Below are positions 1-27,374 of a stretch of 46,449 nucleotides of DNA, in pieces. This DNA comes from a bacterium (GTDB lineage: Bacteria; Zhuqueibacterota; QNDG01; DTFT01). The DNA is taken from NCBI GenBank assembly GCA_030372965.1, contig JAUCQC010000087.1, positions 1 through 46,449 on the forward strand. Direction: 5' to 3'. The notes under the pieces are model-generated. The model worked only from the letters and a program-made list of their open reading frames with translations, had not been told where the DNA came from and made no database searches. The position numbers and the translations under genes were made by a program. Position 1 is the first letter of the stretch. Each line of letters begins with the position of its first letter.

Positions 1-8
1 TTCGGAAC

Positions 9-41
9 TCGTCGGCAGCGTCAGATGTGTATAAGAGACAG
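9..41 (+). other. Nextera read-1 transposase adapter (artefact)
   Basis: Bases 9-41 match the 33-base Illumina Nextera read-1 adapter, ending in the mosaic-end core AGATGTGTATAAGAGACAG at 23-41. It is not genomic. It makes two false protein ends: an N-terminal MYKRQ read from GTG at 27 on the + strand, and a C-terminal LSLIHI on the - strand. Bases 1-8 have no genomic support either. Confidence 0.97.
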
Positions 42-3000
42 CTTCTGAACCAAGTCCGGCGAAATCCCGCGAATTACGATGAAGCCTTCCATGTGTTCGA
101 CTACAGCCGATCGGACACCATACCCCTGGACTTCGTGAACGGCCACGTCTACCACCGCCGCATCATCCGGCAGTATCTGGGCAGTACGGACACCCTTTAT
201 CTGGACGCCGCGATTCCCGACTGTTTCCCGCCCGAGGACATCCGGAATCTGCGCGTGGACGCGTCGGTCGAGGATCCGGACGCGGCCTCGCCCTCGACCG
301 GTTATTCCCGATGGCACATGAACCTGACCTGGGATCCGGCGACGGACGGGGGCAGCGGGCTCCGGGGGTACCGGCTGTACCGCAAAATCACCGGCTATGA
401 CACCGTGTTCAGCGAAATCCCGGGAACCGGCCCGTACCGCCGCACCGCGTACACGGACCGCCTGACGGACCGGCCGGAAGTCGACATCCGCAACGCGATG
501 ATCCGGTATCGGATCGCATCGGAGGATTTCGTCGGCAATGTCCGCACCTGGGAGCAGTCCGTGTTCGAAACCGGGGAAAGGGCGCTCGGCGGACCGACGC
601 TTTCGTTCGTCAACACCCTGCCGCCGGATCAACTCCTGCGCGGCCCGGACACGCTCTTCGTCCGGGGAAACACCGTCGCCTTCCGGCTCGCGTCCTTTGA
701 CGTCGGCCCGGTGCTGTCGTACCGGGTTTCGGTCAACGGAGTGGAAACGCCGCACCGGAACACCGGTGTCGACACGCTGATCCTCCCGCTGACCGCGGAA
801 ACCTCCCGGATCAAGATCCGCGCGCTGTACCCGGCCGGCCGGTCGAGCGTCTGGTCCGGCGTCAAGGTCGTCATCCGCGCCTCGCGAATGCCCGTTCAGG
901 GCCTGACGGCATCGATCGACACCGCCTACTGGGGCGGCCACATTCACCTGCGCTGGCTCCGGCCCTCGGAGGACGTGTTCCGCTACGAGATTCTGCGCTG
1001 GACGGAAGGGCGGAACGCCACGACCGTCGGCCTGCTGTCCTCCTCGGCGGACACGCTGAGGTGGACGGATTTGTACGGGCAGGATGAGCTGCGAAACGCG
1101 CCGGGGGACACGCTCGAGGCTTACCGCGTCTACCGGTACAGCGTGCGCAAGGTGAACCTGTTCCAGGAGACGACGCCGCCCTCCGACACCGTGTCCGCGT
1201 TCTGCAACCGGCCGCCGCGCATCACGGCCCATGAAGTCAAGAGCGAGAACGGCCGGCTGGTCATCGAACTGCGCTGGACCCGGCCGCGTCCCAACCTGTT
1301 CCGTTCGGACTTCACGTCCCGTGTCCGCGTCTTCTCCGACAGCACCACGGGCGAGGCGTTGACGGAGGTCATCGCGGACGACGACACGACATTCACCTGC
1401 CGGACCGCGGCCCTCGGCCGCAATTCAATATTCCAGGTGCTCGAGATCCCCAACCACGATCCGCAGGGAAGGCGGAGCGCCTGGTCCCAGCCCTACACGG
1501 TGTCGTTCCGCACCGTGGACCTGGCCGTGCTGGCCCAGCCGCGCGGCCGGATGTTCGCCCACTGGGGTGATTCGTTCGTGGACAGCCTCCGCGTCAGCCG
1601 GTTCCAGCTGGTGCGGACCGCGGCCGGCGACACGTTCGACCTGATGCTGTCGAACCGCCAGTCCTCCTTCATGGATTTTTCCGAAACCCTCGTGAACGGC
1701 AGGCTGTACCGCTACGCCGTGTTCGCGCTGGATAGCCTGGATCACGTGGTCGCAGGGGAGGTGAAGGAGGATGTCTGCGACCGGGGATCCGCTTACATCC
1801 CCGACGTCAATCCCCTCGGGATGCGGTATTTCAATTCCGATTCCATCGACGTGTCCTGGCACTGGAACCCCGCCCCTGTCGAGGCGGGCGTGCCGGGAGC
1901 GGTCGTCCCCGTCACCGGCACCCGGGGCGCGGTCTCCTGCAGGCTGCAGGTGAGCGTGTCGCGGTCCTTCCCGTCCGATCCGGACCAGACCCTGACGCAG
2001 GGCCCGTTCCCGGCGGATCCGGACGCCCGCGCGCGGCGCGTGCCGATTCCGGACCTGAGCAACATCGAGAACGCGAGACTCTACTTCCGCATCACGGCCT
2101 CCGACCCCTGGGGCAACCCGGTCGAGAGCATCTGGTCGTCCGATTTCTACCCGGTGCAGACCGTGACATACGATCCCGTCCCGCCCAGGCCGGTGAACGC
2201 GGTGCAGTTCAATTCAACCGCGGCGTACTACGCCTCCCCGGACAGCGTGGTCCGGCGCCTCGCGTGGAGCGGGGCCGGCGTGGAGTTTCCCGCGGATCCG
2301 CAGGAGAACTGGAACGATCTGATCGGCAATGTCGCCGCGTATGAGCTGTACCGGAGCCAGGACGGCGGGCCCGAAACCCTCATCGCCGTTCAGCCGACTC
2401 AGCCGTGGCGAAGCGCGCCCTATGCCTGGGCGGACACGGCGGCGAACGCGGAAACCCGCTACCGAATCGTGTCCGTGGACAGCGCCGGGAACCGGACCGC
2501 CGGCGGGTGGCAGGCGCCCGCGTTCCGCGTCCCGACGCCCGAGCCGCCCGATCCGAGGGGGAAGCGCGCGTGCGCCTGGCGGCCGATTTCCGGAAGCGCG
2601 GCCCAGTACGTGGTGGAAATCGCCATGGACCCGCGGCATTTCCGGTACGCGTACGAGATGAACGCGCCTGCCGGTCTTGACAGCCTGGTCTGCCGGAGCG
2701 TGTGGCTCTCCGACACGGCCTTCGTCTGCCCGACCGGATGGGGCTCCATTCAGTGCGACACGACGTGGTTCCGCATCAAGGCCCGGCGGAGCGAAGGCGG
2801 ATTCACCGCCGAGAGCGGATGGTCTTCGCCCTCGTTTTTCGCCCCGGCGCCCGGCGTCGATCCGATAGCCGCTTCGGGCGCGGACGCCGGCCAGCCCGAA
2901 ACCTTCGGATTGAGCCAGAATTACCCGAATCCCTTCAACGCCTCCACCACGATCCGTTTTTCACTGAAGGACCCGTCGCGGGTCAGGCTCACGGTGGTGG

Positions 3001-3194
3001 ATGTCCGGGGCGCGCTGGTCGACCGGCTCGTGGAAGGGACGCGCCAGGCCGGCCGCCAGACCGTCGTCTGGAACGGCTGTGACCGGAACGGGCGTCCCGT
3101 CGCGTCCGGCCTCTACATCGCGGTTCTCTCCGCGGAATCGGAGACGACAGGCCGGACCTTCGCCAGGCGCGTCAAGATGGTCATGATCCGATGA
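42..3194 (+). CDS. Large secreted fibronectin-III repeat protein with C-terminal sorting domain (5' partial)
   Basis: The reading frame runs from the adapter junction to TGA at 3192-3194 (1050 residues); the true start and signal peptide are missing. The protein is a chain of beta-rich Fn3-like modules with recurring phrases of the type 'YRLYR', 'YELYRSQDGG' and 'RYRIVSVDSAGN'. The last ~85 residues begin with SQNYPNPFNASTTIRFSL and end in RRVKMVMIR, the pattern of type IX (type A) or FlgD-Ig-like C-terminal domains that deliver proteins to the cell surface in FCB-type lineages. It overlaps the next open frame by ATGA, suggesting cotranscription. It probably acts outside the cell as a surface or adhesion protein; the ligand is unknown. 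The first five residues of a naive translation (MYKRQ) are adapter. Confidence 0.9.
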   Translation, partial: LLNQVRRNPANYDEAFHVFDYSRSDTIPLDFVNGHVYHRRIIRQYLGSTDTLYLDAAIPDCFPPEDIRNLRVDASVEDPDAASPSTGYSRWHMNLTWDPATDGGSGLRGYRLYRKITGYDTVFSEIPGTGPYRRTAYTDRLTDRPEVDIRNAMIRYRIASEDFVGNVRTWEQSVFETGERALGGPTLSFVNTLPPDQLLRGPDTLFVRGNTVAFRLASFDVGPVLSYRVSVNGVETPHRNTGVDTLILPLTAETSRIKIRALYPAGRSSVWSGVKVVIRASRMPVQGLTASIDTAYWGGHIHLRWLRPSEDVFRYEILRWTEGRNATTVGLLSSSADTLRWTDLYGQDELRNAPGDTLEAYRVYRYSVRKVNLFQETTPPSDTVSAFCNRPPRITAHEVKSENGRLVIELRWTRPRPNLFRSDFTSRVRVFSDSTTGEALTEVIADDDTTFTCRTAALGRNSIFQVLEIPNHDPQGRRSAWSQPYTVSFRTVDLAVLAQPRGRMFAHWGDSFVDSLRVSRFQLVRTAAGDTFDLMLSNRQSSFMDFSETLVNGRLYRYAVFALDSLDHVVAGEVKEDVCDRGSAYIPDVNPLGMRYFNSDSIDVSWHWNPAPVEAGVPGAVVPVTGTRGAVSCRLQVSVSRSFPSDPDQTLTQGPFPADPDARARRVPIPDLSNIENARLYFRITASDPWGNPVESIWSSDFYPVQTVTYDPVPPRPVNAVQFNSTAAYYASPDSVVRRLAWSGAGVEFPADPQENWNDLIGNVAAYELYRSQDGGPETLIAVQPTQPWRSAPYAWADTAANAETRYRIVSVDSAGNRTAGGWQAPAFRVPTPEPPDPRGKRACAWRPISGSAAQYVVEIAMDPRHFRYAYEMNAPAGLDSLVCRSVWLSDTAFVCPTGWGSIQCDTTWFRIKARRSEGGFTAESGWSSPSFFAPAPGVDPIAASGADAGQPETFGLSQNYPNPFNASTTIRFSLKDPSRVRLTVVDVRGALVDRLVEGTRQAGRQTVVWNGCDRNGRPVASGLYIAVLSAESETTGRTFARRVKMVMIR

Positions 3195-15175: not shown

Positions 15176-16009
15176 ATGGAGCCTGTTCGACACGCGGTTC
15201 TCGCCGGAGACTGGTACCCCGGGGACAGGGCCGAACTCCGTAAATGGATCCGCGCTTTTCTGGATGCCGTGCCTCCGCCGGGGTCCCAAAAGACCGGCCT
15301 CATCGGACTGATCAGCCCGCACGCCGGGTATGTGTATTCGGGTTTCACCGCGGCCCACGGCTACCGCCTTCTGGAGGGTCGCGATTTCGAGATCGCGGCC
15401 GTTCTTTCTCCCTATCACGGAATCCCCTCCGGTGACATCATGGTTCACACCGCTTCCGCGTATGAAACGCCGCTCGGACGCGTTCCCGTCGCAAGGGACC
15501 TGATCGAGGCCATGCGGCGCGACACGCAGGTGACGGAACTGGATGGAGAAGAGGAGCATTCCATCGAAATTCAGCTCCCATTTCTGCAGACGGTTCTGAA
15601 GCCGTTCCGCCTCCTGCCGCTGATGATCGGGAACCGGGACGTGCGGCGGGTGGAAAACGCGGTTCAGGCGCTTTTCCACGCGCTCCGGGAGCAGAACGCC
15701 GTCCTGATCGCGAGCACGGACATGCATCACCTGGACGATTACGAAGACGTCAAGGTCAGGGACAAACAGGTGGCGGACGCGCTGGAAACCATGGAACTCG
15801 ATCGGATACGGAATATTCTGAGGCCGGATGAATGCACGGTTTGCGGCAAAGTGCCGATATCCATTGTGCTGGAAACCGCGATGAAAATGGGCGCCAACCG
15901 CCTTCGAACCCTGTACCGGAGCAATTCACGGGACGAATTCAGGGGAAAATATAAAGGATCATATACAGTCGGGTATCTTTCCGCGGCGATCCTGAAGGAA
16001 TCCGCTTGA
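15176..16009 (+). CDS. MEMO-family protein (AmmeMemoRadiSam system protein B-like)
   Basis: 277 residues, preceded by GGGAGG. Family hallmarks are 'VLAGDWYPGD' near the N-terminus, 'GLISPHAGYVYSGFTAAHGY', 'LDGEEEHSIEIQLPFLQTVL' and 'LIASTDMHHLDDYE'. The His, Cys and Asp positions of these motifs form the dioxygenase-like metal site of MEMO1 (here 'CTVCGKVPISIVLETA'). Bacterial members are often encoded with an AMMECR1 protein and a radical SAM enzyme, neither of which is in this window. The role of bacterial MEMO proteins is not established. The -35 box of the perR promoter overlaps its stop codon. Confidence 0.88.
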   Translation: MEPVRHAVLAGDWYPGDRAELRKWIRAFLDAVPPPGSQKTGLIGLISPHAGYVYSGFTAAHGYRLLEGRDFEIAAVLSPYHGIPSGDIMVHTASAYETPLGRVPVARDLIEAMRRDTQVTELDGEEEHSIEIQLPFLQTVLKPFRLLPLMIGNRDVRRVENAVQALFHALREQNAVLIASTDMHHLDDYEDVKVRDKQVADALETMELDRIRNILRPDECTVCGKVPISIVLETAMKMGANRLRTLYRSNSRDEFRGKYKGSYTVGYLSAAILKESA

Positions 16010-16034
16010 CTTTATGTTAAATTTTCCATAAATT
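16006..16034 (+). promoter_or_regulatory. Sigma-70-type promoter of the PerR-type gene
   Basis: TTGACT at 16006-16011 (5 of 6 to consensus) lies 17 bases before TAAATT at 16029-16034 (4 of 6). It sits at the sharp AT-rich break after the MEMO gene and its -10 box abuts a perfect inverted repeat matching a PerR box. Predicted from sequence only. Confidence 0.65.
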
Positions 16035-16048
16035 AATAACGATTATTA
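16034..16048 (+). promoter_or_regulatory. Putative PerR/Fur-family operator
   Basis: TAATAACGATTATTA is a perfect 6-3-6 inverted repeat. It matches the Bacillus PerR box TTATAATnATTATAA at 11 of 14 defined positions. It overlaps the end of the -10 element and the expected transcription start of the PerR-type gene, the classic arrangement for autorepression. Confidence 0.72.
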
Positions 16049-16090
16049 TTTTTGAATCCATTTGTTTTCATCCGAAAAGCGATCCCAGCC

Positions 16091-16504
16091 ATGAGCCTGA
16101 CACCCGCTCGAAAATTTAAATCCAGCAGACAGCGGGATCTCATTCTCCAGATTCTGCGATCCACGAAATCCCACCCGTCCGCGGCGTGGATTTTCGAAGA
16201 GGCGCGCAAGCACCTGCCCTCGATCAGCCTGGGAACCGTTTACCGCAACCTGGCCATGCTCAAGGAAGAGGGACGGATACGGGAATTGTCCGTCGGCAAG
16301 GGCATCGGTCTTTTCGACGGCGATCTACGGAACCACGACCATATCCGCTGTCTGGTCTGCGGAAGAGTCGAGGATGTGCCGCCTTCAGCCCAGTCTTTCT
16401 CCTATTCCCAGGTCGAAGGCGCGGTCGGCTACCGGGTTCACTGGCACAGTCTCGAGTACTTCGGAGTGTGCCCCGGCTGCGAGACCGCGGCAGCGAACGA
16501 GTGA
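16091..16504 (+). CDS. perR: Fur-family regulator, PerR type
   Basis: 137 residues from ATG 16091; an in-frame TTG at 16052 would add 13 residues but lies only four bases past the operator. A winged-helix DNA-binding half ('SSRQRDLILQILRSTKSHPSAAWIFEEARKHLPSISLGTVYRNLAMLKEEGRI') is followed by the dimer half with two structural Zn CxxC pairs (CLVC, CPGC). Aligned by eye to B. subtilis PerR, all five regulatory metal ligands (His37, Asp85, His91, His93, Asp104) have equivalents: H of 'SHPSA', D of 'LFDG', both H of 'NHDHIRC' and D of 'GRVEDV'. That supports peroxide sensing by metal-catalysed His oxidation. It heads a run of peroxide and superoxide defence genes, its likely regulon. Confidence 0.9.
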   Translation: MSLTPARKFKSSRQRDLILQILRSTKSHPSAAWIFEEARKHLPSISLGTVYRNLAMLKEEGRIRELSVGKGIGLFDGDLRNHDHIRCLVCGRVEDVPPSAQSFSYSQVEGAVGYRVHWHSLEYFGVCPGCETAAANE

Positions 16505-16521
16505 AGGACAGGAGGATTCCC

Positions 16522-16869
16522 ATGAAACGGCCGTTCCGGACATTGATGATCACGGCATTCGTCCTGGCCGGACTGACCGGCGCCTGGCCGCATCCGGCCT
16601 CCGCGGTCAAGCTGGAGTATGATTCCGCATCCCGCATCCTGAAAATCATCGCGGCGCACGAAACGAAAAAACCGGCGGAGCACTACATTCAGTCCGTCGT
16701 CGTTCGACTGAACGGCAAAGAGATCGTCAGGCAGGTGTTCGCGAGCCAGGAGGACGTCACGGCCCTGACCGTCTCCTACAAGGTCTTCGACGCGAAACCG
16801 GGAGACACGGTCGAGGTGACAACCGTGTGCAACGTGTTCGGCAAGAAAAAAGAATCGATCCGTCTGTAA
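16522..16869 (+). CDS. Exported superoxide-reductase-like (desulfoferrodoxin fold) protein with incomplete iron site
   Basis: 115 residues, AGGAGG at 16510-16515. A signal peptide ends near PASA|VKLEY (28/29). The mature part follows the desulfoferrodoxin/neelaredoxin pattern: 'HETKKPAEHYIQSVVVRLNG' aligns with the HPNTVEHHIRWIDL segment, and 'TTVCNVFGKK' with CNxHG. Of the five iron ligands in true superoxide reductase, His46, His54 and Cys103 remain; the N-terminal EKH histidine is missing and the last His is Phe106. It may bind a different metal or have lost reductase activity. Compare the complete enzyme at 23542. The family call is moderate because the protein is short and diverged; a SoxZ-like fold is an alternative. 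Confidence 0.68.
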   Translation: MKRPFRTLMITAFVLAGLTGAWPHPASAVKLEYDSASRILKIIAAHETKKPAEHYIQSVVVRLNGKEIVRQVFASQEDVTALTVSYKVFDAKPGDTVEVTTVCNVFGKKKESIRL

Positions 16870-16890
16870 CGGACGATCCGGAGCAAAGCC

Positions 16891-17649
16891 ATGCGGTACA
16901 ACCACCTGATATCCGTTCTCCCGCTGTTGATTGCCCTCAATGCCCCGGCCATTGAGAACAGCATGCTCAATCTTGAGCGGCCCGCGGCTCTTGAATCCGG
17001 GCAGTCTCAGTTCCTCGTCCAGCACCGCTTTTACGGCGCAGTGGACGATCAACCGCTCGATTCCTTCTTCGGTTTGTCCGAGGGCGCCACTGTCGACCTG
17101 GGATTCCGGATAAGCCCGTTGAAAAAACTCGAGATCCGCCTGCACCACACATTCCTGAACAACGAGTACCGTGTCGGCGCCGGCTATTCTTTCTTTCCCC
17201 TGATCCCCGGGTGCAGGGCGCAGGCGGGGGTCGACTGGGTCTCGTTCAAATCCGGCCGTTTTGTCGAAGGTTACTGGAGAGAAGACCGGGAGTCGGTCTG
17301 GTTCGGCCGCGTCGAACTTCAGGCTCCGACTGTCGCGAGGCTCACGCCGGTCGCGAACGCGGGTTTCGACTCGGACAGCCGCAAAACCGGATTCGGAATC
17401 GGCCTGGACTGCGCCGTTTCCGGGAGTGTCAGCCTGATCGGAGAGTTTTTCCCCCGCGCGGACAGGAGCACGTGGGAAGGCGAACGGTCCGAAAACTGTT
17501 TCGCGGCCGGGCTTCAGTTCAGGACCTACGGGCATCATTTTCTGTTCCAGATCGGGAATTCGACGGACATCGGTCTTCGCCGCATGATGCGGGGCGCTCC
17601 AAACCGGGACTTGAAGTTCGGATTCGGGATCAAACGGCTTTTCGAATGA
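16891..17649 (+). CDS. DUF5777-like beta-barrel protein
   Basis: 252 residues with a signal peptide (MRYNHLISVLPLLIALNAPAI). After a short leader, 'LVQHRFYGAVDDQPLDSFFGLSEGATVDLGFRISPLKKLEIRLHHTFLNNEYRVGAGYSF' matches the DUF5777 pattern of predicted outer-membrane barrels, which recur beside redox and cytochrome-type proteins in anaerobes. Alternating strands continue to the C-terminus. It lies 21 bases after the exported SOR-like gene, so both envelope proteins may work together. Function unknown. Confidence 0.7.
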   Translation: MRYNHLISVLPLLIALNAPAIENSMLNLERPAALESGQSQFLVQHRFYGAVDDQPLDSFFGLSEGATVDLGFRISPLKKLEIRLHHTFLNNEYRVGAGYSFFPLIPGCRAQAGVDWVSFKSGRFVEGYWREDRESVWFGRVELQAPTVARLTPVANAGFDSDSRKTGFGIGLDCAVSGSVSLIGEFFPRADRSTWEGERSENCFAAGLQFRTYGHHFLFQIGNSTDIGLRRMMRGAPNRDLKFGFGIKRLFE

Positions 17650-17707
17650 CCGGGTCCACACGGGATCCGGCGGAAACAACCATGCATGACAGATCAGAGG
17701 GAACGGC

Positions 17708-18211
17708 ATGAAGAAAATGACTGAAAAAAGCCTGCACGACGCGTTCGCGGGGGAGAGTCAGGCGCATATGAAGTACCTGATCTTCGCCAAGCGCGCCGAA
17801 GAGGAGAACAAGCCGAACATCGCGCGGCTGTTCCGCGCCATATCCTTCGCCGAACAGGTGCACGCCACGGGTCATTTCAAGGCCCTCGGCGAGGTCGCGG
17901 GCACGGTTGAGAACCTGCAGGCCGCCATTGACGGCGAGAATTTCGAGGTGGAGGAGATGTACCCCGCCTACGACGCGGTGGCCAAGTTGCAGGCGGAGAA
18001 AGAGGCGATTCGCACCATCCACTACGCCATCGAGGCCGAAAAGATACACGCGGCCATGTACACGGAGGCCAAGCAGGCGGCGAAGGAAAACAAGGACCTC
18101 TCCATCGAGGCCGTTCATATCTGCCCGGTGTGCGGATACACCGTGATCGGCGACGCCCCGGACGCCTGTCCGGTATGCGGTGTCGCGAAGTCCAAATTCG
18201 TCAAATTCTGA
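17708..18211 (+). CDS. rbr: Rubrerythrin
   Basis: 167 residues. An N-terminal four-helix diiron domain carries the paired Glu/His motifs ('[21 protein letters not shown]', '[16 protein letters not shown]', '[32 protein letters not shown]'). A C-terminal rubredoxin-like domain has two Cys pairs (CPVCGY and CPVCGV). Rubrerythrins reduce hydrogen peroxide to water in anaerobes, taking electrons from rubredoxin or flavoproteins; a rubredoxin gene follows at 18769. Placed downstream of a PerR-type gene, it is a likely PerR target. Confidence 0.96.
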
Positions 18212-18250
18212 ACGGCGGGGATGCCCCGCCACGGCGCCGCAGGAGGACGC

Positions 18251-18757
18251 ATGGGAGTTTTCTTTTCCGCGAAGGAAATGGTTCGGATCGCGGTTCGGAA
18301 CGAGGAAACGGGTCTGGATTTCTACCGTCGGGCCGCGGAACGCGCGTCCGCGCCCGAGTTGAAGCGGCTGTTCGACGATCTCGCCGTCCAGGAGCAGGCG
18401 CACAAGGTGAAATTCCTCGCCTTTCTGGACCGCATTCAGGAGCCGGCCCAGCCGGCCGAGAGACCGGCCGACCCCGACGAGACCGGCCGGTACATCGCGG
18501 CGATGACGGACAACCGTTTGTTCGACGGCGAAGACAAGAACATCGCGCTCGCGGCGAAGGCGTCGGACGGAAAGTCCGCCGTCGAGTTCGCCCTGGGTTT
18601 CGAGAAGGATACCCTTCTTTTCTTCTACCAGATGCTGGAACAGGTCCGATCCGCGGACAGGCCGCTGGTGGAGGAGATCATCCGGGAGGAGAAGAGCCAC
18701 ATCCGGCGCCTGGCCGAGATCCGCAAGGAACTGGAATCGCAAACCACGCGTTCTTAA
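18251..18757 (+). CDS. Ferritin-like (rubrerythrin-related) diiron protein
   Basis: 168 residues from ATG 18251, after AGGAGG at 18241-18246. It has two half-repeats with Glu and ExxH motifs: '[20 protein letters not shown]', '[16 protein letters not shown]', '[17 protein letters not shown]', '[15 protein letters not shown]'. There is no rubredoxin domain. This is the erythrin-type family seen in anaerobes, probably a peroxide-reducing or iron-handling diiron protein in the cytoplasm. It is encoded between rubrerythrin and rubredoxin, an operon-like arrangement. Confidence 0.88.
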
Positions 18758-18768
18758 AGGAGGCAGCC

Positions 18769-18927
18769 ATGGATAAGTACGTCTGCATCGTCTGCGGATA
18801 CGTCTACGACCCGGCGCACGGGGATCCGGCCAACGGCGTTCAGCCCGGGACTCCCTTTGAGCAGATTCCGGACGACTGGGTGTGCCCGGACTGCGGCGCG
18901 TCGAAGGACCAGTTCGAGAAGCAGTGA
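18769..18927 (+). CDS. Rubredoxin
   Basis: 52 residues, with AAAGGAGG upstream of ATG 18769. Cys6-x2-Cys9 and Cys39-x2-Cys42 bind one iron; '[33 protein letters not shown]' is textbook rubredoxin. It carries single electrons in the cytoplasm and is the expected donor to rubrerythrin and to superoxide reductase in this cluster. Confidence 0.98.
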
Positions 18928-18953
18928 ACCGGACCGCCCGGGGCGGTTCGTTT
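18926..18953 (+). terminator. Possible terminator after rubredoxin
   Basis: A perfect 6-bp stem ACCGCC / GGCGGT (18933-18938 and 18942-18947, loop CGG) follows the stop, with GAACCG/CGGTTC as an alternative pairing, then GTTT. The T-tract is short, so termination may be partial. Confidence 0.42.
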
Positions 18954-19085
18954 AAAACATCAGCGATTTGTGCGCGATACCCGTCTCCCGATGAGGAAAC
19001 GCTTCAATCGGCGTCGGGGCGGAATACCGCGGATCCGTTTCCGGCCGCCGCCGGAACGGGAACCGATGCTTGACAGGAGGTTTGA

Positions 19086-19574
19086 ATGATCAGCAGGAAA
19101 ATGCAGGACGCGTTGAACCAGCAGATCAACGAGGAAATGTTCTCCTCGTACCTGTACCTGGCCATGTCCGCTCATTGCGAGCAGGAGGGGTTCAAGGGCG
19201 CCGCGAAGTGGTTCGGGGTCCAGGCGGCCGAGGAAACCAGCCACGCCATGAAATTCTTCAAATACATCCTCGAACAGGGCGGGCAGATTGAATTGAAGGC
19301 CATCGCGAAGCCGGAAGGCCCGTTCGGCCCGCTCTCCGACTGCTTCGAGAAAGCGCTGAAACACGAACAGCACATCACCGCGTGCATCCACAAGCTGGCC
19401 GAACAGGCCGTGGCGGAGAAGGATTTCGCCACACAGAACCTGCTTCAGTGGTACGTGAACGAGCAGGTGGAGGAGGAGGCCCACGCGGGCGAGATCGTGA
19501 CGCGGCTGAAGATGGCCGGCGCGAACGGTCTGTTTTTCGTCGATGCGGAGCTCGGTCGGAGGAACGCCGGCTGA
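19086..19574 (+). CDS. ftnA: Ferritin (non-haem iron storage)
   Basis: 162 residues, AGGAGG at 19076-19081. 'LNQQINEEMFSSYLYLAMSAHCEQEGFKGAAKWFGVQAAEETSHAMKFFKYI' gives the first ferroxidase half with ExxH; 'LLQWYVNEQVEEEAHAGEIVTRLKM' gives the second. Length and motifs match bacterial FtnA, a 24-subunit shell that oxidises and stores iron. It follows the rubrerythrin-rubredoxin set after a 158-base gap and would remove free iron that drives hydroxyl radical formation. Confidence 0.95.
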   Translation: MISRKMQDALNQQINEEMFSSYLYLAMSAHCEQEGFKGAAKWFGVQAAEETSHAMKFFKYILEQGGQIELKAIAKPEGPFGPLSDCFEKALKHEQHITACIHKLAEQAVAEKDFATQNLLQWYVNEQVEEEAHAGEIVTRLKMAGANGLFFVDAELGRRNAG

Positions 19575-19586
19575 TCAGAAAGGTCT

Positions 19587-19677
19587 CAGATTGTGAGTCA
19601 ACGATTTGGGATGGATGCTCGGCCTGTACGATTCTTGCTGTTCGATCCGAAATCTTCAATCGTTGATCCGCGATCTG
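19587..19677. repeat. Degenerate inverted repeat before the PFOR gene
   Basis: The arm at 19587-19612 and the reverse complement of 19652-19677 agree at 19 of 26 positions, sharing the core TCAACGATT. Fragments of the same words (GATCAACGATT, ATTGAAGAT, CAGATCGC) recur at 27401-27440. The rest of the 19575-19850 gap has no gene. Confidence 0.6.
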
Positions 19678-19850
19678 GCATTGTTTCATAAATAAGAATC
19701 ACCGGTTTTTAATCAAGCGAGACGGACGGATTCCCCTCGAACACCAGCGAAACCAGGGCGGTTTCGCGGCGCAGGGGAACGCCGTCATTTCGAAACGGCA
19801 ATTTAAATCATCATGCTTTCTATAGATCAAATTCAAGGAGGATGTTTTTA

Positions 19851-22800
19851 ATGAGCAAGAAAATGGTCACCATTGACGGGAATGAGGGCGCCGCGCACGC
19901 CGCCTATCATACTAATGAAGTCATCGCCATCTATCCCATCACCCCGTCTTCGACGATGGGTGAGCTTTCGGACCAGTGGGCCGCCGAGGGAAAGAAGAAC
20001 ATCTGGAACACGGTCCCCCAGGTCACCGAGATGCAGAGCGAGGGCGGCGCTTCGGGCGCGGTTCACGGCGCGCTTCAGGCCGGCGCGCTGACGACCACGT
20101 TCACGGCGTCGCAGGGCCTGTTGCTCATGATTCCCAACATGTTCAAGATCGCGGGCGAACTCACGTCCACCGTGTTCCATGTTTCGGCCCGAACCCTGGC
20201 GACCCACGCCCTGTCGATTTTCGGGGACCACAGCGACGTCATGGCCACCCGCTCGACGGGGTGGGCCCTGCTGGCTTCCAACTCAGTCCAGGAGGCCGGT
20301 GACTTCGCGCTGATCGCCCAGAACGCCACGCTGAACACCCGCATCCCGTTCCTGCACTTCTTCGACGGTTTTCGGACTTCGGCCGAGGTGGCCAAGGTCT
20401 GCCTGCTGTCCACCGAGGAGATGCGCGCCATGATTCCGGACGACCTGGTCCGGCAGCACCGCGAACGGGCCCTTTCGCCCGACCGTCCCTTTGTCCGCGG
20501 CACGGCGCAGAACCCGGACGTGTTCTTCCAGGCTCGCGAGCGCATCAATCCCTTCTACACGGCCTGTCCGGACCTCGTCCAGAAATCCATGGACCTGTTC
20601 GCCTCCGTCACCGGCCGCAAGTATTCCCTCTTCGATTATGTCGGCGCCCCCAATCCCGAGAAACTCATCATCCTCATGGGTTCGGGCGCCGAAGTGGCGC
20701 ATGAGGCCGTGGACCACCTCGTGAAAAAGGGAGAGAGCGTCGGCATTCTCAAGGTGCGGCTCTACCGCCCGTTCTCCCTGGCGCATTTCGCGAAGGCCCT
20801 GCCCAAATCCGTGAAGCAGATCGCGGTGCTCGACCGCACGAAGGAGCCGGGCGCTTCCGGGGAACCGCTGTATATCGACGTGCTCTCCGGCATCGCCGAA
20901 GCCAAGGCCACCGGCCTGCTGGACGCTGGTTTTTCACCCCGAGTCATCGGCGGCCGGTACGGGCTGTCGTCCAAGGAATTCACCCCGGCCATGGTCAAGG
21001 CGATCTATGACGAGCTGGGAAAGAAGGACGCCAGGACCCATTTCACCGTCGGCATCGAGGACGACGTGACGCATCTCTCCCTCGCGGTCGACGCGTCCTT
21101 CTCCACGGAGCCGTCGGAACGCACCCGCGCCGTCTTCTACGGCCTGGGCGCGGACGGAACGGTGAGCGCGAACAAGAGCTCGATCAAGATCATCGGCGAG
21201 GAGACGGATTTCAACGCGCAGGGATTCTTCTTTTACGATTCCAAGAAAGCCGGCACGCTCACGACCAGCTACCTGCGGTTCGGGAAGGATCCCATCCGCT
21301 CCTCGTACCTCGTCGACAAGGCGAACTTCGTCGCCTGCCACCAGTTCTCCTTCCTGGAGCGGTACGACATGCTGGCCGTGGCGGACACGGGGGCCACGTT
21401 CCTGCTCAACAGCCCCCACGGCCCGGATTCGGTCTGGAGCCATCTGCCGAAGAAGGTCCAGGAGGACATCATCCGCAAGAAGCTCCGCTTCTTCGTGATC
21501 GACGCCTACAAGATCGCCAAGGAAGTCGGCCTCGGCGTCCGCATCAACACCATCATGCAGACCTGCTTTTTCGCCATCAGCAACGTGCTGCCGAAGGACG
21601 AGGCGATCGCCTACATCAAGGCCTTCACCAAGAAGAACTACGGCAAGCGCGGCGAATCAATCCTGCAGATGAACTACCAGGCCATCGACAACGCGGTGGC
21701 CCACCTTCACGAGGTGAAGGTGCCCGCTCAGGCCGACAGCCGGTTCGACATGCGGCTGCCCGTTCCCAAGAACGCGCCGGAGTTCGTGAAAAAGGTCACC
21801 GGCCGCATTATCGCCGGTCAGGGCAACGACATCCCCGTGGGGGACTTCCCGGTGGACGGCACTTTCCCGTCAGCCACGACAAAGTGGGAGAAGCGGAACA
21901 TCGCGCTCGAGATACCGGTGTGGGACCCGGACACCTGCATCCAGTGCGGCAAGTGTTCATCGGTGTGCCCGCACGCCGTGATCCGCGCCAAGGTGTATGA
22001 CGCCGGGCTTCTCGCGAAGGCGCCGAAGACCTTTAAGAGCGCGGAGGCGAAGTGGAAGGAGTTCACGGGCATGAAATACACCATTCAGGTGTCGCCTGAG
22101 GACTGCACCGGGTGCTCCCTGTGCTTCCAGGTCTGCCCCGCGAAAAACAAGCAGGACGCGTCCAAGAAGGCGCTCGGCATGGCCACCCAGGCGCCCCTGC
22201 GCGAGGCGGAAAGCGCGAACTGGGAATTCTTCCTCGGGCTGCCCGACATGGACCGGAACCGCCTCAAGGTCAACACGGTGAAGGACCTCCAGCTCCTGGA
22301 ACCGCTGTTCGAGTTCTCGGGCGCCTGCGCCGGATGCGGCGAGACGCCGTACATCAAGCTGCTCAGCCAGTTGTTCGGCGACCGGATGCTCGTCGCCAAC
22401 GCCACGGGCTGCTCCTCCATTTACGGCGGAAACCTGCCGACCACCCCGTACTCGGTCAACCGGGACGGCCGGGGTCCGGCCTGGTCCAACTCCCTGTTCG
22501 AGGACAACGCCGAGTTCGGCATGGGGCTCCGTCTCGCGGAGGACAAGAAAGTGGAGTTCGCCGTCGAGCTTCTGAAGTCCCTGTCCTCGGATCTCGGAGA
22601 CGCGTTCGTGGAATCCCTGGTCGCGTCGGAACAGTCGGATGAAGCCGGAATCAACGCCCAGCGCGGCCGGGTGGCGGAGCTGAAGAAAAAGCTCGCCGGC
22701 ATCCGGAAACCCGAGGCGGCGCAGCTCGCGGCCGTGGCGGATTCTCTCGTCAAGCGCAGCGTCTGGATCATCGGCGGGGACGGCTGGGCCTACGACATCG

Positions 22801-23420
22801 GGTACGGCGGCCTGGACCACGTCATCGCCTCCGGACGAAACGTGAACATCCTCGTGCTCGACACCGAGGTCTATTCCAACACCGGCGGCCAGGCCTCGAA
22901 AGCCACGCCCCGCGGAGCCGTCGCCAAGTTCGCCGCGGGCGGAAAGCCGGCGCCCAAGAAGGACCTGGCCATGATGGCCATGGCCTACACCAATGTCTAC
23001 GTCGCGCGCGTGGCCCTCGGCGCCAACGACGCCCAGGCCGTCAAGGCCGTTCTCGAGGCCGAGGCGTTCAAGGGCCCGTCGATCATCATCGCGTACAGCC
23101 ACTGCATCAACCACGGGTACAGCCTCGTCAACGGGCTGAACCAGCAGAAGGCCGCGGTGCAGTCGGGGTACTGGCCGCTCCTGCGGTACAATCCGGACCT
23201 GGCGGAACAGGGCAAGAATCCGCTGACGCTGGACTCCAAGGCCCCGGCGATTCCGCTCGAGCAGTACATCTACAACGAGACCCGGTACAGCATGCTCACG
23301 AAGACCAAACCGGAACAGGCGAAGCTCCTGCTCCAGCAGGCGCAGGAGGACGTCCGGACCCGCTGGAAGCTCTACGAACACCTGGCGAACATGCCGGCTT
23401 CCGCGGGCAAGTCCGAATGA
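19851..23420 (+). CDS. nifJ: Pyruvate:ferredoxin (flavodoxin) oxidoreductase, homodimeric
   Basis: 1189 residues. ATG 19851 is chosen over 19842 because AAGGAGG (19835-19841) is correctly spaced for it. The order matches single-chain PFOR: N-terminal pyrimidine-binding domain ('NEVIAIYPITPSSTMGELSDQWAAEG'), transketolase C-like domain, a middle domain, an insert with two 4Fe-4S motifs (from residues ~696 CIQCGKCSSVCP and ~752 CTGCSLCFQVCP), a third cluster region (CAGCGETPY ~826) and the TPP domain (GDGWAYDIGYGG ~977, 'DTEVYSNTGGQASKATPRGA'). It converts pyruvate and CoA to acetyl-CoA, CO2 and reduced ferredoxin. Oxygen damages this enzyme class, which fits its position between ferritin and superoxide reductase. 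Confidence 0.97.
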   Translation: MSKKMVTIDGNEGAAHAAYHTNEVIAIYPITPSSTMGELSDQWAAEGKKNIWNTVPQVTEMQSEGGASGAVHGALQAGALTTTFTASQGLLLMIPNMFKIAGELTSTVFHVSARTLATHALSIFGDHSDVMATRSTGWALLASNSVQEAGDFALIAQNATLNTRIPFLHFFDGFRTSAEVAKVCLLSTEEMRAMIPDDLVRQHRERALSPDRPFVRGTAQNPDVFFQARERINPFYTACPDLVQKSMDLFASVTGRKYSLFDYVGAPNPEKLIILMGSGAEVAHEAVDHLVKKGESVGILKVRLYRPFSLAHFAKALPKSVKQIAVLDRTKEPGASGEPLYIDVLSGIAEAKATGLLDAGFSPRVIGGRYGLSSKEFTPAMVKAIYDELGKKDARTHFTVGIEDDVTHLSLAVDASFSTEPSERTRAVFYGLGADGTVSANKSSIKIIGEETDFNAQGFFFYDSKKAGTLTTSYLRFGKDPIRSSYLVDKANFVACHQFSFLERYDMLAVADTGATFLLNSPHGPDSVWSHLPKKVQEDIIRKKLRFFVIDAYKIAKEVGLGVRINTIMQTCFFAISNVLPKDEAIAYIKAFTKKNYGKRGESILQMNYQAIDNAVAHLHEVKVPAQADSRFDMRLPVPKNAPEFVKKVTGRIIAGQGNDIPVGDFPVDGTFPSATTKWEKRNIALEIPVWDPDTCIQCGKCSSVCPHAVIRAKVYDAGLLAKAPKTFKSAEAKWKEFTGMKYTIQVSPEDCTGCSLCFQVCPAKNKQDASKKALGMATQAPLREAESANWEFFLGLPDMDRNRLKVNTVKDLQLLEPLFEFSGACAGCGETPYIKLLSQLFGDRMLVANATGCSSIYGGNLPTTPYSVNRDGRGPAWSNSLFEDNAEFGMGLRLAEDKKVEFAVELLKSLSSDLGDAFVESLVASEQSDEAGINAQRGRVAELKKKLAGIRKPEAAQLAAVADSLVKRSVWIIGGDGWAYDIGYGGLDHVIASGRNVNILVLDTEVYSNTGGQASKATPRGAVAKFAAGGKPAPKKDLAMMAMAYTNVYVARVALGANDAQAVKAVLEAEAFKGPSIIIAYSHCINHGYSLVNGLNQQKAAVQSGYWPLLRYNPDLAEQGKNPLTLDSKAPAIPLEQYIYNETRYSMLTKTKPEQAKLLLQQAQEDVRTRWKLYEHLANMPASAGKSE

Positions 23421-23460
23421 CCGGCCGGTGATTTGAAGGTCGCACCAATCCTTTTCTCGC

Positions 23461-23510
23461 GAGACGTTTGAACGTTCGAACGTGCGAACGGTTGAACGTT
23501 CAAACGTCTC
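23461..23510. repeat. 50-bp palindrome between PFOR and superoxide reductase genes
   Basis: Perfect 17-bp arms (23461-23477 and 23494-23510, GAGACGTTTGAACGTTC and its complement) flank a 16-base centre. The word GAACGTTC occurs in both arms, with GAACGTGC and GAACGGTT between. No T-tract follows. It could be a bidirectional hairpin at the mRNA 3' end, a protein-binding site, or one copy of an interspersed repeat family. Confidence 0.85.
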
Positions 23511-23541
23511 CGGGAATGGAATTCATCGAGGAGGACCGGAA

Positions 23542-23940
23542 ATGTCCAAACTGACCGAATCGATTCAGTCCGCCGACTGGAAGGCGGAGAAGCACGTGCC
23601 CGTCATCGAGTGCGCCGCGGCGGTAAAGGCCGGCGAAGGATTCGACGTGCGGATCACCGTGGGACGGGAAATCGCGCACCCGAACACCGTCGAGCATCAC
23701 ATCCGCTGGATCGACCTCTACTTTCAGGCGGACGGCGCGAAATTTCCCTACCAGGTCGGCCATTTCGAATTCAGCGCGCACGGAGAAAGCGCCGAGGGGC
23801 CGAACCAGGGGCCCGTGCACGCCCTGTCCCAGGTGACGGCGACCGTGAAAGTCACGAAACCCGGAGTCCTGACCGCCCTCGCCCTGTGCAACATCCACGG
23901 ACTGTGGCAGTCGGAAAAGCCGGTCGGAATCTCGGGCTGA
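23542..23940 (+). CDS. Superoxide reductase, neelaredoxin (class II) type
   Basis: 132 residues from ATG 23542 behind GAGGAGG. All catalytic-site elements are present: EKHVP (Glu16, Lys17, His18), HPNTVEHHI (His46, His52) and CNIHG (Cys116, His119), giving the Fe(His)4Cys centre. There is no N-terminal desulforedoxin domain, so it is the one-iron class. It reduces superoxide to hydrogen peroxide with electrons from rubredoxin, without producing oxygen, and hands peroxide to the rubrerythrins upstream. It lacks a signal peptide and should be cytoplasmic. Confidence 0.96.
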   Translation: MSKLTESIQSADWKAEKHVPVIECAAAVKAGEGFDVRITVGREIAHPNTVEHHIRWIDLYFQADGAKFPYQVGHFEFSAHGESAEGPNQGPVHALSQVTATVKVTKPGVLTALALCNIHGLWQSEKPVGISG

Positions 23941-23958
23941 GGCAGGGGAGGAAGCCGC

Positions 23959-24465
23959 ATGCCGATCGATCTCTCTTCACTGTCCGTCGAAAAAGCCCTC
24001 GCCATGGCGGTCCGTTCCGAAACCGACGCGGCGGAGGTCTACCGGAAGCTGAACGGCCAGATCCGGAATTTCATGCTCAAGGAGAAAATGCGTTTTCTCG
24101 AGGAGGAGGAGAAGCGGCACAGGGAACTGTTGACGGCGATTCACCGGAAAGTGGCCAAAGGACGCGAACCCGCCGAAAACGAACGCCCCATTCTTCCCGC
24201 GCTTTCCCTGTCCCTGACGGAGTCCCACTCGGTTCCGGATCTTCTGGAAATCGCGATGGACGCTGAAAAAACGGCCGAGGAGTTCTACGACGGACTCTCC
24301 CAGAACGTCGAAGACCGGGGACTCCGCGAAGTGCTCCTGTACCTCGCCAGCATGGAGCACGGTCATTATTTCCTGCTGAAGGGGGAATATGACCTGTGCC
24401 TGCGGGATGAGGCGTACTTCGACCGCGAGGATTTTCAGTACGACATGGTGCATATCGGACCCTGA
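23959..24465 (+). CDS. Ferritin-like (rubrerythrin-related) protein
   Basis: 168 residues, 18 bases after superoxide reductase, with GGGGAGG upstream. Diiron-type motifs are visible: 'MAVRSETDAAEVYRKL', 'FLEEEEKRHRELLTAI', 'IAMDAEKTAEEFYDGL' and 'YLASMEHGHYFLLKGEYDL'. No rubredoxin domain. It resembles the protein at 18251 in layout but is clearly different in sequence. Probably a cytoplasmic peroxide-reducing or iron-binding protein; exact reaction unknown. Confidence 0.85.
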   Translation: MPIDLSSLSVEKALAMAVRSETDAAEVYRKLNGQIRNFMLKEKMRFLEEEEKRHRELLTAIHRKVAKGREPAENERPILPALSLSLTESHSVPDLLEIAMDAEKTAEEFYDGLSQNVEDRGLREVLLYLASMEHGHYFLLKGEYDLCLRDEAYFDREDFQYDMVHIGP

Positions 24466-24508
24466 GCCGGGCGCGACGCGCACGGGTTTTCCCGCCCGGT
24501 TCGATTTT
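24465..24508 (+). terminator. Terminator-like hairpin after the ferritin-like gene
   Basis: A 10-pair stem (24465-24474 with 24493-24502, one G-U) is followed by GATTTTC. It lies just before the small membrane protein gene and could terminate or attenuate transcription from the superoxide reductase side. The U-tract is short. Confidence 0.5.
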
Positions 24509-24523
24509 CATCGGAGACATTCC

Positions 24524-24844
24524 ATGAAAGACGCCGATTCCGTCCTGATCGTCCGGCACGTGCACCGGTGGAGCGGGCTCCTCCTGATTCTGTTCGCGGG
24601 CGTGAAAATGGTGTCGGGTCTGCGCCTGGCCGGAGCCGCGCCCTTCCCCGGGGAAGCCGCGGCCCGGTGGATGCATTTTTCGCGCTGGGTCGATGTCCCG
24701 TTTTTTCTGCTGTTCTCGGTTCACGCGGCCTACGGCCTGCTCCGGATGCGGATGGCTTCGGTGAGGAACAAGGTCCGGGCCTTCGCCGCCGCAAGCGCCG
24801 CGGCGCTGGCCGTTTTCGCGTTCTTCGCCCGGTACTATTATTGA
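24524..24844 (+). CDS. Small three-helix membrane protein with conserved-looking histidines
   Basis: 106 residues from ATG 24524. Three predicted TM helices: 'WSGLLLILFAGVKMVSGL', 'VPFFLLFSVHAAYGLL' and 'AAASAAALAVFAFFARYYY'. Histidines sit at the membrane edges ('IVRHVHRWSG', 'MHFSRW') and one inside helix 2 (FSVHAAYG), a layout like the haem-b anchors of succinate dehydrogenase and related cytochrome b subunits. A role as a quinone- or haem-linked membrane anchor is plausible but unproven. It lies between a ferritin-like gene and a cysteine desulfurase gene. Confidence 0.65.
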   Translation: MKDADSVLIVRHVHRWSGLLLILFAGVKMVSGLRLAGAAPFPGEAAARWMHFSRWVDVPFFLLFSVHAAYGLLRMRMASVRNKVRAFAAASAAALAVFAFFARYYY

Positions 24845-24860
24845 TCCCGATCTCTTCTGG

Positions 24861-26030
24861 ATGGAACCCATGATCTATCTGGACAACGCGGCGTCGACGC
24901 GGGTCGACCCACGGGTCGTCGAAGCCATGCTTCCGTTCTTCACCGAGACGTACGCGGTCGCGTCTTCGCAGTTTTCCCACACGCCGGGCATTCTGGCGAA
25001 GGAAGCGCTCGACCGGGCGCGCTCCGTTATCGCGGAGCGGCTGGGCGCCGGACCCGATGAAATCGTTTTCACCTCCGGGGGCACGGAATCGAACAATCTG
25101 GCGCTCAAGGGCGCCGCGGCCGCGGCCGGGCCGAAACGGAAGGGCATCGTCTGCTCGGCGGTCGAGCACACTTCGGTTCTGCACACCTGCCGCGCGCTGG
25201 AAAAACGGGGATTCCCGCTCGCCGTTGTCCCGGTCGACGGGGAGGGTTTCGTCGATCTGAACCGCCTCGAAGAGGCCGTGACCGATCAGACCGCCGTCGT
25301 CAGCGTTCAGCAGGGCAACCAGGAGGTGGGCACCCTTCAGCCCCTGGACGCCGTGGCGGACCTGTGCCGGAAAAAAGGCGCGCTGCTGCACGTCGACGCG
25401 TCGCTCTCGTTCACGCAGACCGGCCTCGATGTCCGCTCGATCCCGGCCAACCTGGTCACGGTGACCGCCCACAAGATGCACGGGCCGAAGGGGATCGGCG
25501 CCCTCTACGTCCGGAAGGGGACGGCGCTGGAGAAGATCCAGCACGGCGGCTACATGGAAAACGACCTGCGGGCCGGCACGGAAAACGTCGCGGCCGCGGT
25601 GGGGTTCGGAAAGGCCGTTGAAATCGCCGACGACGCCTCCGTCGAATCGGTCCGCCTTCTTCAGAAAAGACTGTTCGCGCTGCTGCTCGAGGCCGTCCCG
25701 GACGCGCAGGTCAACGGGCCGGCAGACCCGGCGAAACGGCTTTGCGGCAATGTGAACGTGTCCTTCCCCTTCGTCGAGGGCGAATCCGTGGTGCTCCATC
25801 TCGACATGAAGGGCATTGCCGTGATCACGGGATCCGCCTGCTTTTCCCGGTCCCTCGAACCCAGTTACGTGATGATGGCCATGGGTTATTCGCACGAGCG
25901 CGCGCACGGGTCCATCCGGTTCACGCTGAGCCGGTTCAACACCGAGGACGAAATCCGCCGGACGGCCGAAGCCTGCCGGGAGGTGGTCGAGGCGCTCCGG
26001 AGAATCAGCCCGCTGGCGAAAAAGGAGTGA
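24861..26030 (+). CDS. Cysteine desulfurase (NifS/IscS family)
   Basis: 389 residues; ATG 24870 (MIYLDNAAST) is an equally possible start. The family motifs are in order: 'YLDNAASTRVDPRVVEAM', 'IVFTSGGTESNNLALKG', 'SAVEHTSVLHTC', 'SVQQGNQEVGTLQPL', 'TVTAHKMHGPKGIGALYV' with the PLP lysine at ~205, and 'VITGSACFSRSLEPSYVMMAMG' with the catalytic Cys at ~327. It removes sulfur from cysteine to supply Fe-S cluster assembly. The Cys loop differs from the common SGSACTSGS form. The scaffold gene follows 7 bases later, then two sulfur-carrier genes. Confidence 0.95.
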   Translation: MEPMIYLDNAASTRVDPRVVEAMLPFFTETYAVASSQFSHTPGILAKEALDRARSVIAERLGAGPDEIVFTSGGTESNNLALKGAAAAAGPKRKGIVCSAVEHTSVLHTCRALEKRGFPLAVVPVDGEGFVDLNRLEEAVTDQTAVVSVQQGNQEVGTLQPLDAVADLCRKKGALLHVDASLSFTQTGLDVRSIPANLVTVTAHKMHGPKGIGALYVRKGTALEKIQHGGYMENDLRAGTENVAAAVGFGKAVEIADDASVESVRLLQKRLFALLLEAVPDAQVNGPADPAKRLCGNVNVSFPFVEGESVVLHLDMKGIAVITGSACFSRSLEPSYVMMAMGYSHERAHGSIRFTLSRFNTEDEIRRTAEACREVVEALRRISPLAKKE

Positions 26031-26037
26031 GCGGAGC

Positions 26038-26676
26038 ATGTCCATCCCATACACCAAGAAAATCCTGGAACATTTCATGCATCCCCACAACGTGGGGCAG
26101 GTCGAAAACCCCGACGCGACCGCCACCGAGGGCAGCCCCGCCTGCGGGGACATGGTCAAGCTGAGCCTGAAGGTGGACGCGCCGACGAAAACCATCACGG
26201 ATATCAAGTTCGAGTCCTACGGGTGCGCTTCGAACATCGCCACGGGCTCCATCATCACGGACCTGGCCAAGGGACGGACGATCGACGAGGCGAAGGCCAT
26301 CACCTGGCAGAAGGCCAACGAGGAACTCGGCGGCCTGCCGCCGGTGAAGGTGCATTGCGCGGTTCTGGCCGTCGACGCGCTGAAAACGGCGATCGAGAAC
26401 TACGAGCACCGGCACGGCCTTCTGAAGGAAAAAGTCCCGACGGACGAGAAAATCGTGATGAAGCGGCTCTCCCGCGTGATCAATCCGCTCGCCGGGCTCG
26501 ATGTCGTCCGGACCAAGATCGTGACGGAGGTCCGCATCGAGGCGGGCGACGTGACGGTATTCGTCGAACTCCCGGAAGATCACCAGTTTGCCGCCAATCT
26601 CCGGAACGAAATACAGGAGCGCATCGAACCCCTCTGGGACGTTCGCTCCGTGAATGTGGTTTTCAGGGGCAAGTGA
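26038..26676 (+). CDS. IscU/NifU-type Fe-S scaffold fused to a MIP18 (DUF59)-like domain
   Basis: 212 residues. Residues 1-125 are an IscU/NifU-N scaffold with Cys36-Gly-Asp38, Cys63 and Cys107, the three cysteines and aspartate that hold the nascent cluster. Residues ~135-212 ('RLSRVINPLAGLDVVRTKIVTEVRIEAGDVTVFVEL...LRNEIQERIEPLWDVRSVNVVF') follow the MIP18/DUF59 pattern, which helps deliver clusters to target proteins. That second domain has no cysteines, ruling out a NifU-C (CxxC) domain. The fusion puts assembly and delivery in one chain. It overlaps tusA by TGATG. Confidence 0.86.
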   Translation: MSIPYTKKILEHFMHPHNVGQVENPDATATEGSPACGDMVKLSLKVDAPTKTITDIKFESYGCASNIATGSIITDLAKGRTIDEAKAITWQKANEELGGLPPVKVHCAVLAVDALKTAIENYEHRHGLLKEKVPTDEKIVMKRLSRVINPLAGLDVVRTKIVTEVRIEAGDVTVFVELPEDHQFAANLRNEIQERIEPLWDVRSVNVVFRGK

Positions 26677-26903
26677 TGCGGGCGGACCTGTTCGTCGACG
26701 TGACCGGGCAGACGTGCCCCATCCCCCTGGTCGAAATGCGCAAGGCCGTGATGAAGGCGCAGAAGGGCCAGGTCATCGAAATCCGCGGCACGCACGCGGC
26801 CTCGAAGAAGGAAATCCCGATGGCCGCGGATTCCCTGCGGCTGGAACTCCTCGAGGTCAGCGACGGACCCGACGGATCCTGGCGCATTCTCATCCGAAAA
26901 TAG
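26676..26903 (+). CDS. tusA: TusA/SirA-family sulfur carrier
   Basis: 75 residues, start overlapping the scaffold stop. The motif GQTCPIPLVEMRKAV holds the sulfur-accepting Cys14 in the CPxP context, and the C-terminal half has the expected beta-alpha-beta layout. TusA takes persulfide from cysteine desulfurase and passes it on for tRNA thiolation, cofactor synthesis or Dsr-type pathways. Adjacent desulfurase, scaffold and DsrE-like genes fit a sulfur relay. Confidence 0.93.
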   Translation: MRADLFVDVTGQTCPIPLVEMRKAVMKAQKGQVIEIRGTHAASKKEIPMAADSLRLELLEVSDGPDGSWRILIRK

Positions 26904-26957
26904 ACGCGCCGGCTCCGGCCGCGGTCCGACAGGCGGCCGGAATCGGACGGGAGTCCG

Positions 26958-27374
26958 ATGGAAAAAGTGACCATCGTCGTCCACAGCGGCGAGCTGGACC
27001 GGTTCATGAGCGCGCTGATCATCGGCAACGGATTCCTGGCGATGGGCGCCGAAGTCACCCTCTACTTCACCTTCTGGGCCCTCCAGCGCCTGGTCCGTGG
27101 CCGCCTTTCGAAGGCCCCCCTTTCCCGGATGAACTTTTTCGGTCTCGGCGCCTGGATGATGCGCCGGAAAATGGCCAAGGCCGGGGTCGCCTCGCCCGAG
27201 CGGCTCCTCTCGGATTTCCGCGCCATCGGCGGACGCGTCATCGCCTGTGAAATGACCATGGAAATCATGGGCATCGCGAAACAGGACCTCGACGAAAGCC
27301 TGATCGACGAATTCGGCGCCGTGGGACTGTACGTCCACGAGACGCTTGGAGCCTCAAAGACCCTGTTCATCTGA
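26958..27374 (+). CDS. DsrE/DsrF-like family protein
   Basis: 138 residues. 'MEKVTIVVHSGELDRFMSALIIGNGFLAMGAEVTLYFTFWALQRL' matches the DsrE/F/H Rossmann-like fold of the peroxiredoxin-related subgroup. A single well-placed Cys97 ('GGRVIACEMTMEIMGI') may carry persulfide. The C-terminus 'AVGLYVHETLGASKTLFI' is also typical of the subgroup. It lies 54 bases after tusA; TusA and DsrE proteins exchange sulfur in other bacteria. Probable cytoplasmic sulfurtransferase. Confidence 0.86.
   Translation: MEKVTIVVHSGELDRFMSALIIGNGFLAMGAEVTLYFTFWALQRLVRGRLSKAPLSRMNFFGLGAWMMRRKMAKAGVASPERLLSDFRAIGGRVIACEMTMEIMGIAKQDLDESLIDEFGAVGLYVHETLGASKTLFI

Follow-up and report, generated by a model that had tools for sequence, protein, structure and literature searches.

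A putative autoregulated PerR operator at the head of an antioxidant gene cluster in an uncultured anaerobic phylum, and its relation to PerR proteins with arginine at position 61

The 19-bp palindrome at positions 16032-16050 of the DNA analysed here (the window, 46,449 nucleotides) is, with a probability that we put at roughly 0.8, an autorepressing, peroxide-released operator of the PerR encoded downstream of it, and would govern an antioxidant gene cluster in cis. Judged by its sequence, the box belongs to a type that is common to the PerR proteins of many anaerobes, and is not the classical Bacillus PerR box.

Results

The predicted operator, its promoter and the genes downstream

The features to which the text refers are the following.

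16006-16034, + strand: sigma-70-like promoter, TTGACT (16006-16011), 17 nt, TAAATT (16029-16034); a TTGACA-like element lies upstream of the box in 56/66 related promoters
16032-16050, no strand: palindromic operator of 19 bp, ATTAATAACGATTATTATT (core 16034-16048), overlapping the -10 element and the transcription start predicted near 16041
16091-16504 (ATG), + strand: perR, Fur-family repressor; metal site of PerR type, Arg as the specificity residue of helix 4 (family match, ligand alignment, tree)
16522-16869, + strand: 115-aa protein of no known family, beside a DUF5777 gene also in genomes G011 and G008
16891-17649, + strand: DUF5777 beta-barrel protein (domain match)
17708-18211, + strand: rubrerythrin (family match; follows perR in relatives)
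18221-18757, + strand: second rubrerythrin-like protein (family match; gene order in relatives)
18769-18927, + strand: rubredoxin, CxxC...CxxC (read from the ORF)
19086-19574, + strand: ferritin (family match; gene order in relatives)
19842-23420, + strand: pyruvate:ferredoxin oxidoreductase, PFOR (TIGR02176, 1823 bits)
23539-23940, + strand: superoxide reductase, neelaredoxin type (TIGR00332, above cut-off)
23959-24465, + strand: third rubrerythrin-like protein (family match)
24861-26676, + strand: nifS-like cysteine desulfurase (24861-26030) and nifU-like scaffold (26038-26676) (NifU_N; order kept in G002), the probable end of the cluster

The core of the operator, TAATAACGATTATTA, lies just 3' of TTGACT-17-TAAATT and 5' of the Fur-family gene, for which TTG at 16052 is an alternative start. 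The promoter overlapping the box, as described in an earlier sequence-only reading, is indeed present; it is the sole sigma-70-like promoter found on the + strand within 15900-27000, and its -35 hexamer takes in the stop codon with which the MEMO1-family gene upstream ends. The same reading called the box a perfect inverted repeat, which is right for the 6-bp arms around CGA but not for the 7th pair, where C and A are mismatched (6/7 pairs), and the full conserved operator of 19 bp is longer than the 15-mer. Matches to TAATAACGATTATTA with at most 3 mismatches are expected 0.02 times, going by shuffles of the window, and in the 3.28 Mb genome the exact sequence has one copy only, the runner-up having 2 mismatches.

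In the mechanism that we propose, modelled on PerR proteins that have been characterised, a metal-loaded PerR dimer would occupy 16032-16050, whose midpoint is the predicted start (16041), covering the -10 element and blocking initiation from the promoter at 16006. Peroxide would oxidise a metal-ligand histidine and the dimer would be released, upon which perR and the rubrerythrin-rubredoxin-ferritin-PFOR-superoxide reductase-nifSU cluster would be expressed. The whole would then be an autoregulated, mainly local stress operon read as one long transcript; binding, repression, peroxide release and the single transcript are our inference.

Two other observations concern the window. An outer-membrane-type pair, the 115-aa protein and the DUF5777 protein (16522-17649), sits between perR and rubrerythrin. 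At the contig end, positions 9-41 (TCGTCGGCAGCGTCAGATGTGTATAAGAGACAG) are an apparent leftover Nextera sequencing adapter, with an exact match to its 19-base transposon end at 23-41, so that the ORF at 3-3194 begins with artefactual residues (SSAASDVYKRQ).

How far the regulation extends

The genome-wide peroxide regulon that had been envisaged did not emerge. Pattern searches of the window genome (84.7% complete) gave no convincing second strong box, and their 27 matches were no excess over the 47 in a reversed control, so the regulon looks local and the likely targets of the operator lie in cis downstream. The two sites that score next best in the genome were rejected as targets, having no evident connection with oxidative stress: C249:1411 lies before the gene of a sodium:solute symporter (23.6 bits) and C229:35907 before that of a DUF362 protein (23.5 bits). 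Box counts in AT-rich relatives were uninformative, with control counts above the real ones.

The operator could also control perR and the first genes only, with ferritin, PFOR, superoxide reductase and nifSU having promoters of their own, an arrangement that is possible but that we hold to be doubtful. There is room for it, since ferritin is preceded by a gap of 158 nt and PFOR by one of 267 nt, with two more of 118 and 395 nt further on; those of 158, 267 and 395 nt could hide further promoters, and a weak box-like match of 9.8 bits is also found at 19806, 36 nt before PFOR. This match and the other next-best site within the window (10.2 bits) are, however, at the level expected by chance, the search of 15900-27000 gave no other + strand promoter of the sigma-70 kind, and the genes share one strand and an order conserved in relatives, much of it recurring in G002, G006, G005 and others.

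Other members of the phylum have paralogous perR genes with katG (L054, L061) or a ferritin-like gene (L052, L059; in L059 AhpC comes after it) behind them, and the same box stands before katG and before the ferritin-like gene, which ties the box to peroxide defence.

The regulator

The sequence-only reading stated that the protein keeps all five regulatory ligands of PerR, and the alignment bears this out: H37, D85, H91, H93 and D104 of B. subtilis PerR correspond to H28, D76, H82, H84 and D95. Both structural zinc CxxC pairs are present, and C87, C90, C127 and C130 are invariant in 9 orthologs. The protein scores 103 bits with PerR models against 59 bits with Fur models, although its 103.4 bits fall below the NCBIfam PerR equivalog cut-off of 180. 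With the fold, the ligands, the CxxC pairs and the peroxide-defence neighbours all in place, the window protein is by sequence a PerR in the broad, functional sense, for which release by peroxide is predicted.

In B. subtilis, residue 104 decides peroxide sensitivity. The proteins of L019 (genome G004) and L107 have Asn in place of this PerR-diagnostic Asp104, and may sense differently; L019 still has the box.

One residue counts against the reading of the site as a PerR operator. In helix 4, R52 stands where B. subtilis PerR has Asn61, as in Fur, and this Arg is invariant in the 9 orthologs. According to Caux-Thang et al. 2015, as cited in PMC8638851 and PMC8638967, the boxes of B. subtilis PerR and Fur are told apart by Asn61/Arg61 in helix 4.

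Box type and residue 61

The window site agrees with the B. subtilis PerR box at 11/14 positions, as had been counted earlier, but with the B. subtilis Fur box at 11/14 as well, and the earlier description of a near-consensus Bacillus box finds no support: the box is of another type and its regulator falls in an Arg61/Asp104 clade. The second base of the 15-mer is A in both window arms, where the Bacillus PerR box has T and the Fur box G.

That all 102 homologs collected have Arg could not be used as evidence, as YRN was contained in the peptides of that earlier search, which biased the set. A sample of 300 genomes of Bacillota (the phylum of Natroniella) was therefore searched with B. subtilis PerR as query, and 93 loci were analysed: 21 Asn61/Asp104, 45 Arg61/Asp104, 10 Lys61/Asp104 and 17 Arg61/Glu104. 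The box of the Asn61 group was ATTTATAATNATTATAAAT, with T as second base in 31/40 half-sites. The box of the Arg61/Asp104 group was AATARTAATNATTAYTATT, with A in 48, G in 23, C in 3 and T in 0 of 74 half-sites, so that 71/74 have a purine (A or G) at this discriminating position. The window site reaches 22.0 bits under the Arg-type model and 16.0 under the Asn-type one.

In the tree, all Arg/Asp proteins lie on one side of a branch (support 98/82, 62 rows). The clade takes in the window, Desulfovibrio (L143) and Carboxydothermus sequences, and is separate from both the Asn-type PerR and the Arg/Glu Fur clade (support 100/99 for the latter). The association between residue and base gives a Fisher p of 3e-20, a value confounded by descent and with independent events not counted; because the groups are clades, the link between residue 61 and the base rests on few independent events. 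The Lys61/Asp104 proteins (TVYKTL; 10 Bacillota proteins, including L237, L259, L264, L268, L271, L275, L284 and L286) are perhaps a further specificity class; the motif of the 10 loci was too weak for any to be clearly its own.

These data bear on a second alternative, in which the protein would sense iron in the manner of Fur and bind a Fur box, repressing ferritin, Fe-S and related genes in response to iron and not to peroxide. The helix-4 Arg and the 11/14 agreement with the Fur box fit this, as do the ferritin and nifSU genes in the cluster. No Fur-family gene other than perR was found in the window genome at 84.7% completeness, which fits the PerR reading as well as this one. Yet D95 is an Asp at the 104 position, where Fur has Glu, and the Arg/Asp proteins stand apart from the Fur clade. 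The second base is A, not G, in both arms, the neighbours include rubrerythrin and superoxide reductase, and katG and peroxiredoxin-linked ferritin genes have the same box before them. We regard iron sensing of this kind as unlikely; since PerR is itself metal-dependent, an added response to iron is conceivable.

Conservation of the box at perR operons

The position and conservation of the operator, the metal ligands and the gene order are results of computation. The order to which the window genome belongs comprises 12 genomes, and a perR ortholog is found in 9, its own included. In 8/9 the palindrome lies directly 3' of the promoter, and in the ninth (G009) the box is 5' of the rubrerythrin gene that immediately precedes perR. 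A model built from Bacillota only recovers the box in front of every one of the 9 perR operons in the order. Against shuffled versions of these promoters, p <= 0.004 for the 8 with the box directly upstream of perR, and p = 0.001 for the box before the rubrerythrin-perR pair of G009. Absence of the box from orthologous genes in close relatives had been named as what would speak against the operator; with G009 counted through its upstream rubrerythrin gene, it is present in all nine. Chance in an AT-rich intergenic stretch is hardly a credible source of the palindrome: promoter DNA is locally AT-rich in this 63% GC genome, but the independent model places the box at the same spot in orthologs beyond what shuffles of those promoters give, and the window operator scores 32.5 bits against a maximum of 20.6 in a simulated 3.28 Mb genome.

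Palindromic expectation-maximisation on 102 related perR upstream regions (25 from the same phylum, 77 from others) gave the 19-bp palindrome AATARTAATNATTAYTATT de novo, with a log-likelihood of 415 against 58-68 in 8 dinucleotide shuffles, and the window site ranks 6th of 102 against this motif. Among 66 sites with scores over 10 bits, 56 have a TTGACA-like element at most 60 nt upstream (against 17.7 in shuffles), with 25-33 nt the commonest spacing to the box, and this fixed distance indicates that the operator covers the -10 element and the start. Compensatory change between the arms, at first suggested by the orthologs of the order, was withdrawn as a claim (column shuffle over 66 sites, p = 0.61).

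In G001, a genome of the same genus that is 76% complete, no perR ortholog was found. It holds a different Fur-family gene followed by one for an AhpC-type peroxiredoxin (L051:3351-4732), with GATAAC/GATAAT-type boxes on the flanks, possibly another peroxide regulator that replaces PerR.

Discussion

Rodionov et al. 2004 (PMC545781) described delta-proteobacterial perR genes without the B. subtilis box, and predicted Desulfovibrio PerR sites such as AATAGGAATCGTTCCTGTT (Table 7), with perR-rbr-rdl among the targets; regulation by PerR was mainly local in delta-proteobacteria, and the Geobacter box overlaps the -10 element. The Desulfovibrio operators are the same type of palindrome as the window site, with whose reverse strand the central AATCGTT of AATAGGAATCGTTCCTGTT is identical, and the Desulfovibrio protein L143 shares the Arg61/Asp104 clade with the window protein. 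The arms differ, being AT in the window and mostly GG/CC in Desulfovibrio, and the window cluster is larger and belongs to another phylum. Going by sequence comparison, the window protein and its AATARTAATNATTAYTATT operator overlapping the promoter appear to be of the Desulfovibrio-type Arg61/Asp104 PerR. This operator type is thus already known from the 2004 predictions, and the window site adds to it.

With B. subtilis PerR the window protein shares the fold, the five metal ligands and the two CxxC pairs, but Arg replaces Asn61, its box has A in both arms where TTATAATNATTATAA has T as the second base, and it falls in another clade; Asn61, a TTATAATNATTATAA box with second-base T and a score above the NCBIfam equivalog cut-off are the marks of the Bacillus type that the window lacks. 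With B. subtilis Fur (box TGATAATNATTATCA) the helix-4 Arg and 11/14 of the box are held in common, whereas Fur has Glu104 against Asp in the window, belongs to another clade, and the window targets are those of peroxide defence. In Clostridioides difficile, perR lies in a rubrerythrin/superoxide reductase operon with a restricted, peroxide-inducible regulon, and a gel shift has been carried out on the rbr promoter (PMC8546684, PMC11980386). The likeness to the window is in operon makeup and in a regulon that looks restricted, although rbr comes first in C. difficile. A local regulon in the window thus agrees with both delta-proteobacteria (PMC545781) and C. difficile (PMC11980386).

On balance we favour the view that Arg61/Asp104 PerR is a widespread operator-specificity class beside the Asn61 PerR and the Arg61/Glu104 Fur, in which the chemistry of peroxide sensing goes together with a recognition residue like that of Fur and an A/G box. 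It would span about ten or more phyla by record titles, mostly of anaerobes, and in KSB1 one such operator would govern a whole antioxidant cluster in cis. The open literature that we searched held no statement tying the box type to Arg61 across phyla; subscription papers and RegPrecise were outside the search, so one may exist.

For this uncultured anaerobic phylum, the finding provides a specific, testable operator and promoter for an oxidative-stress cluster. A simple rule, in which residue 61 of the regulator is paired with the box's second base, may account for the failure of the Bacillus PerR consensus in many anaerobes; it would also aid the annotation of peroxide regulons where the Bacillus box finds nothing.
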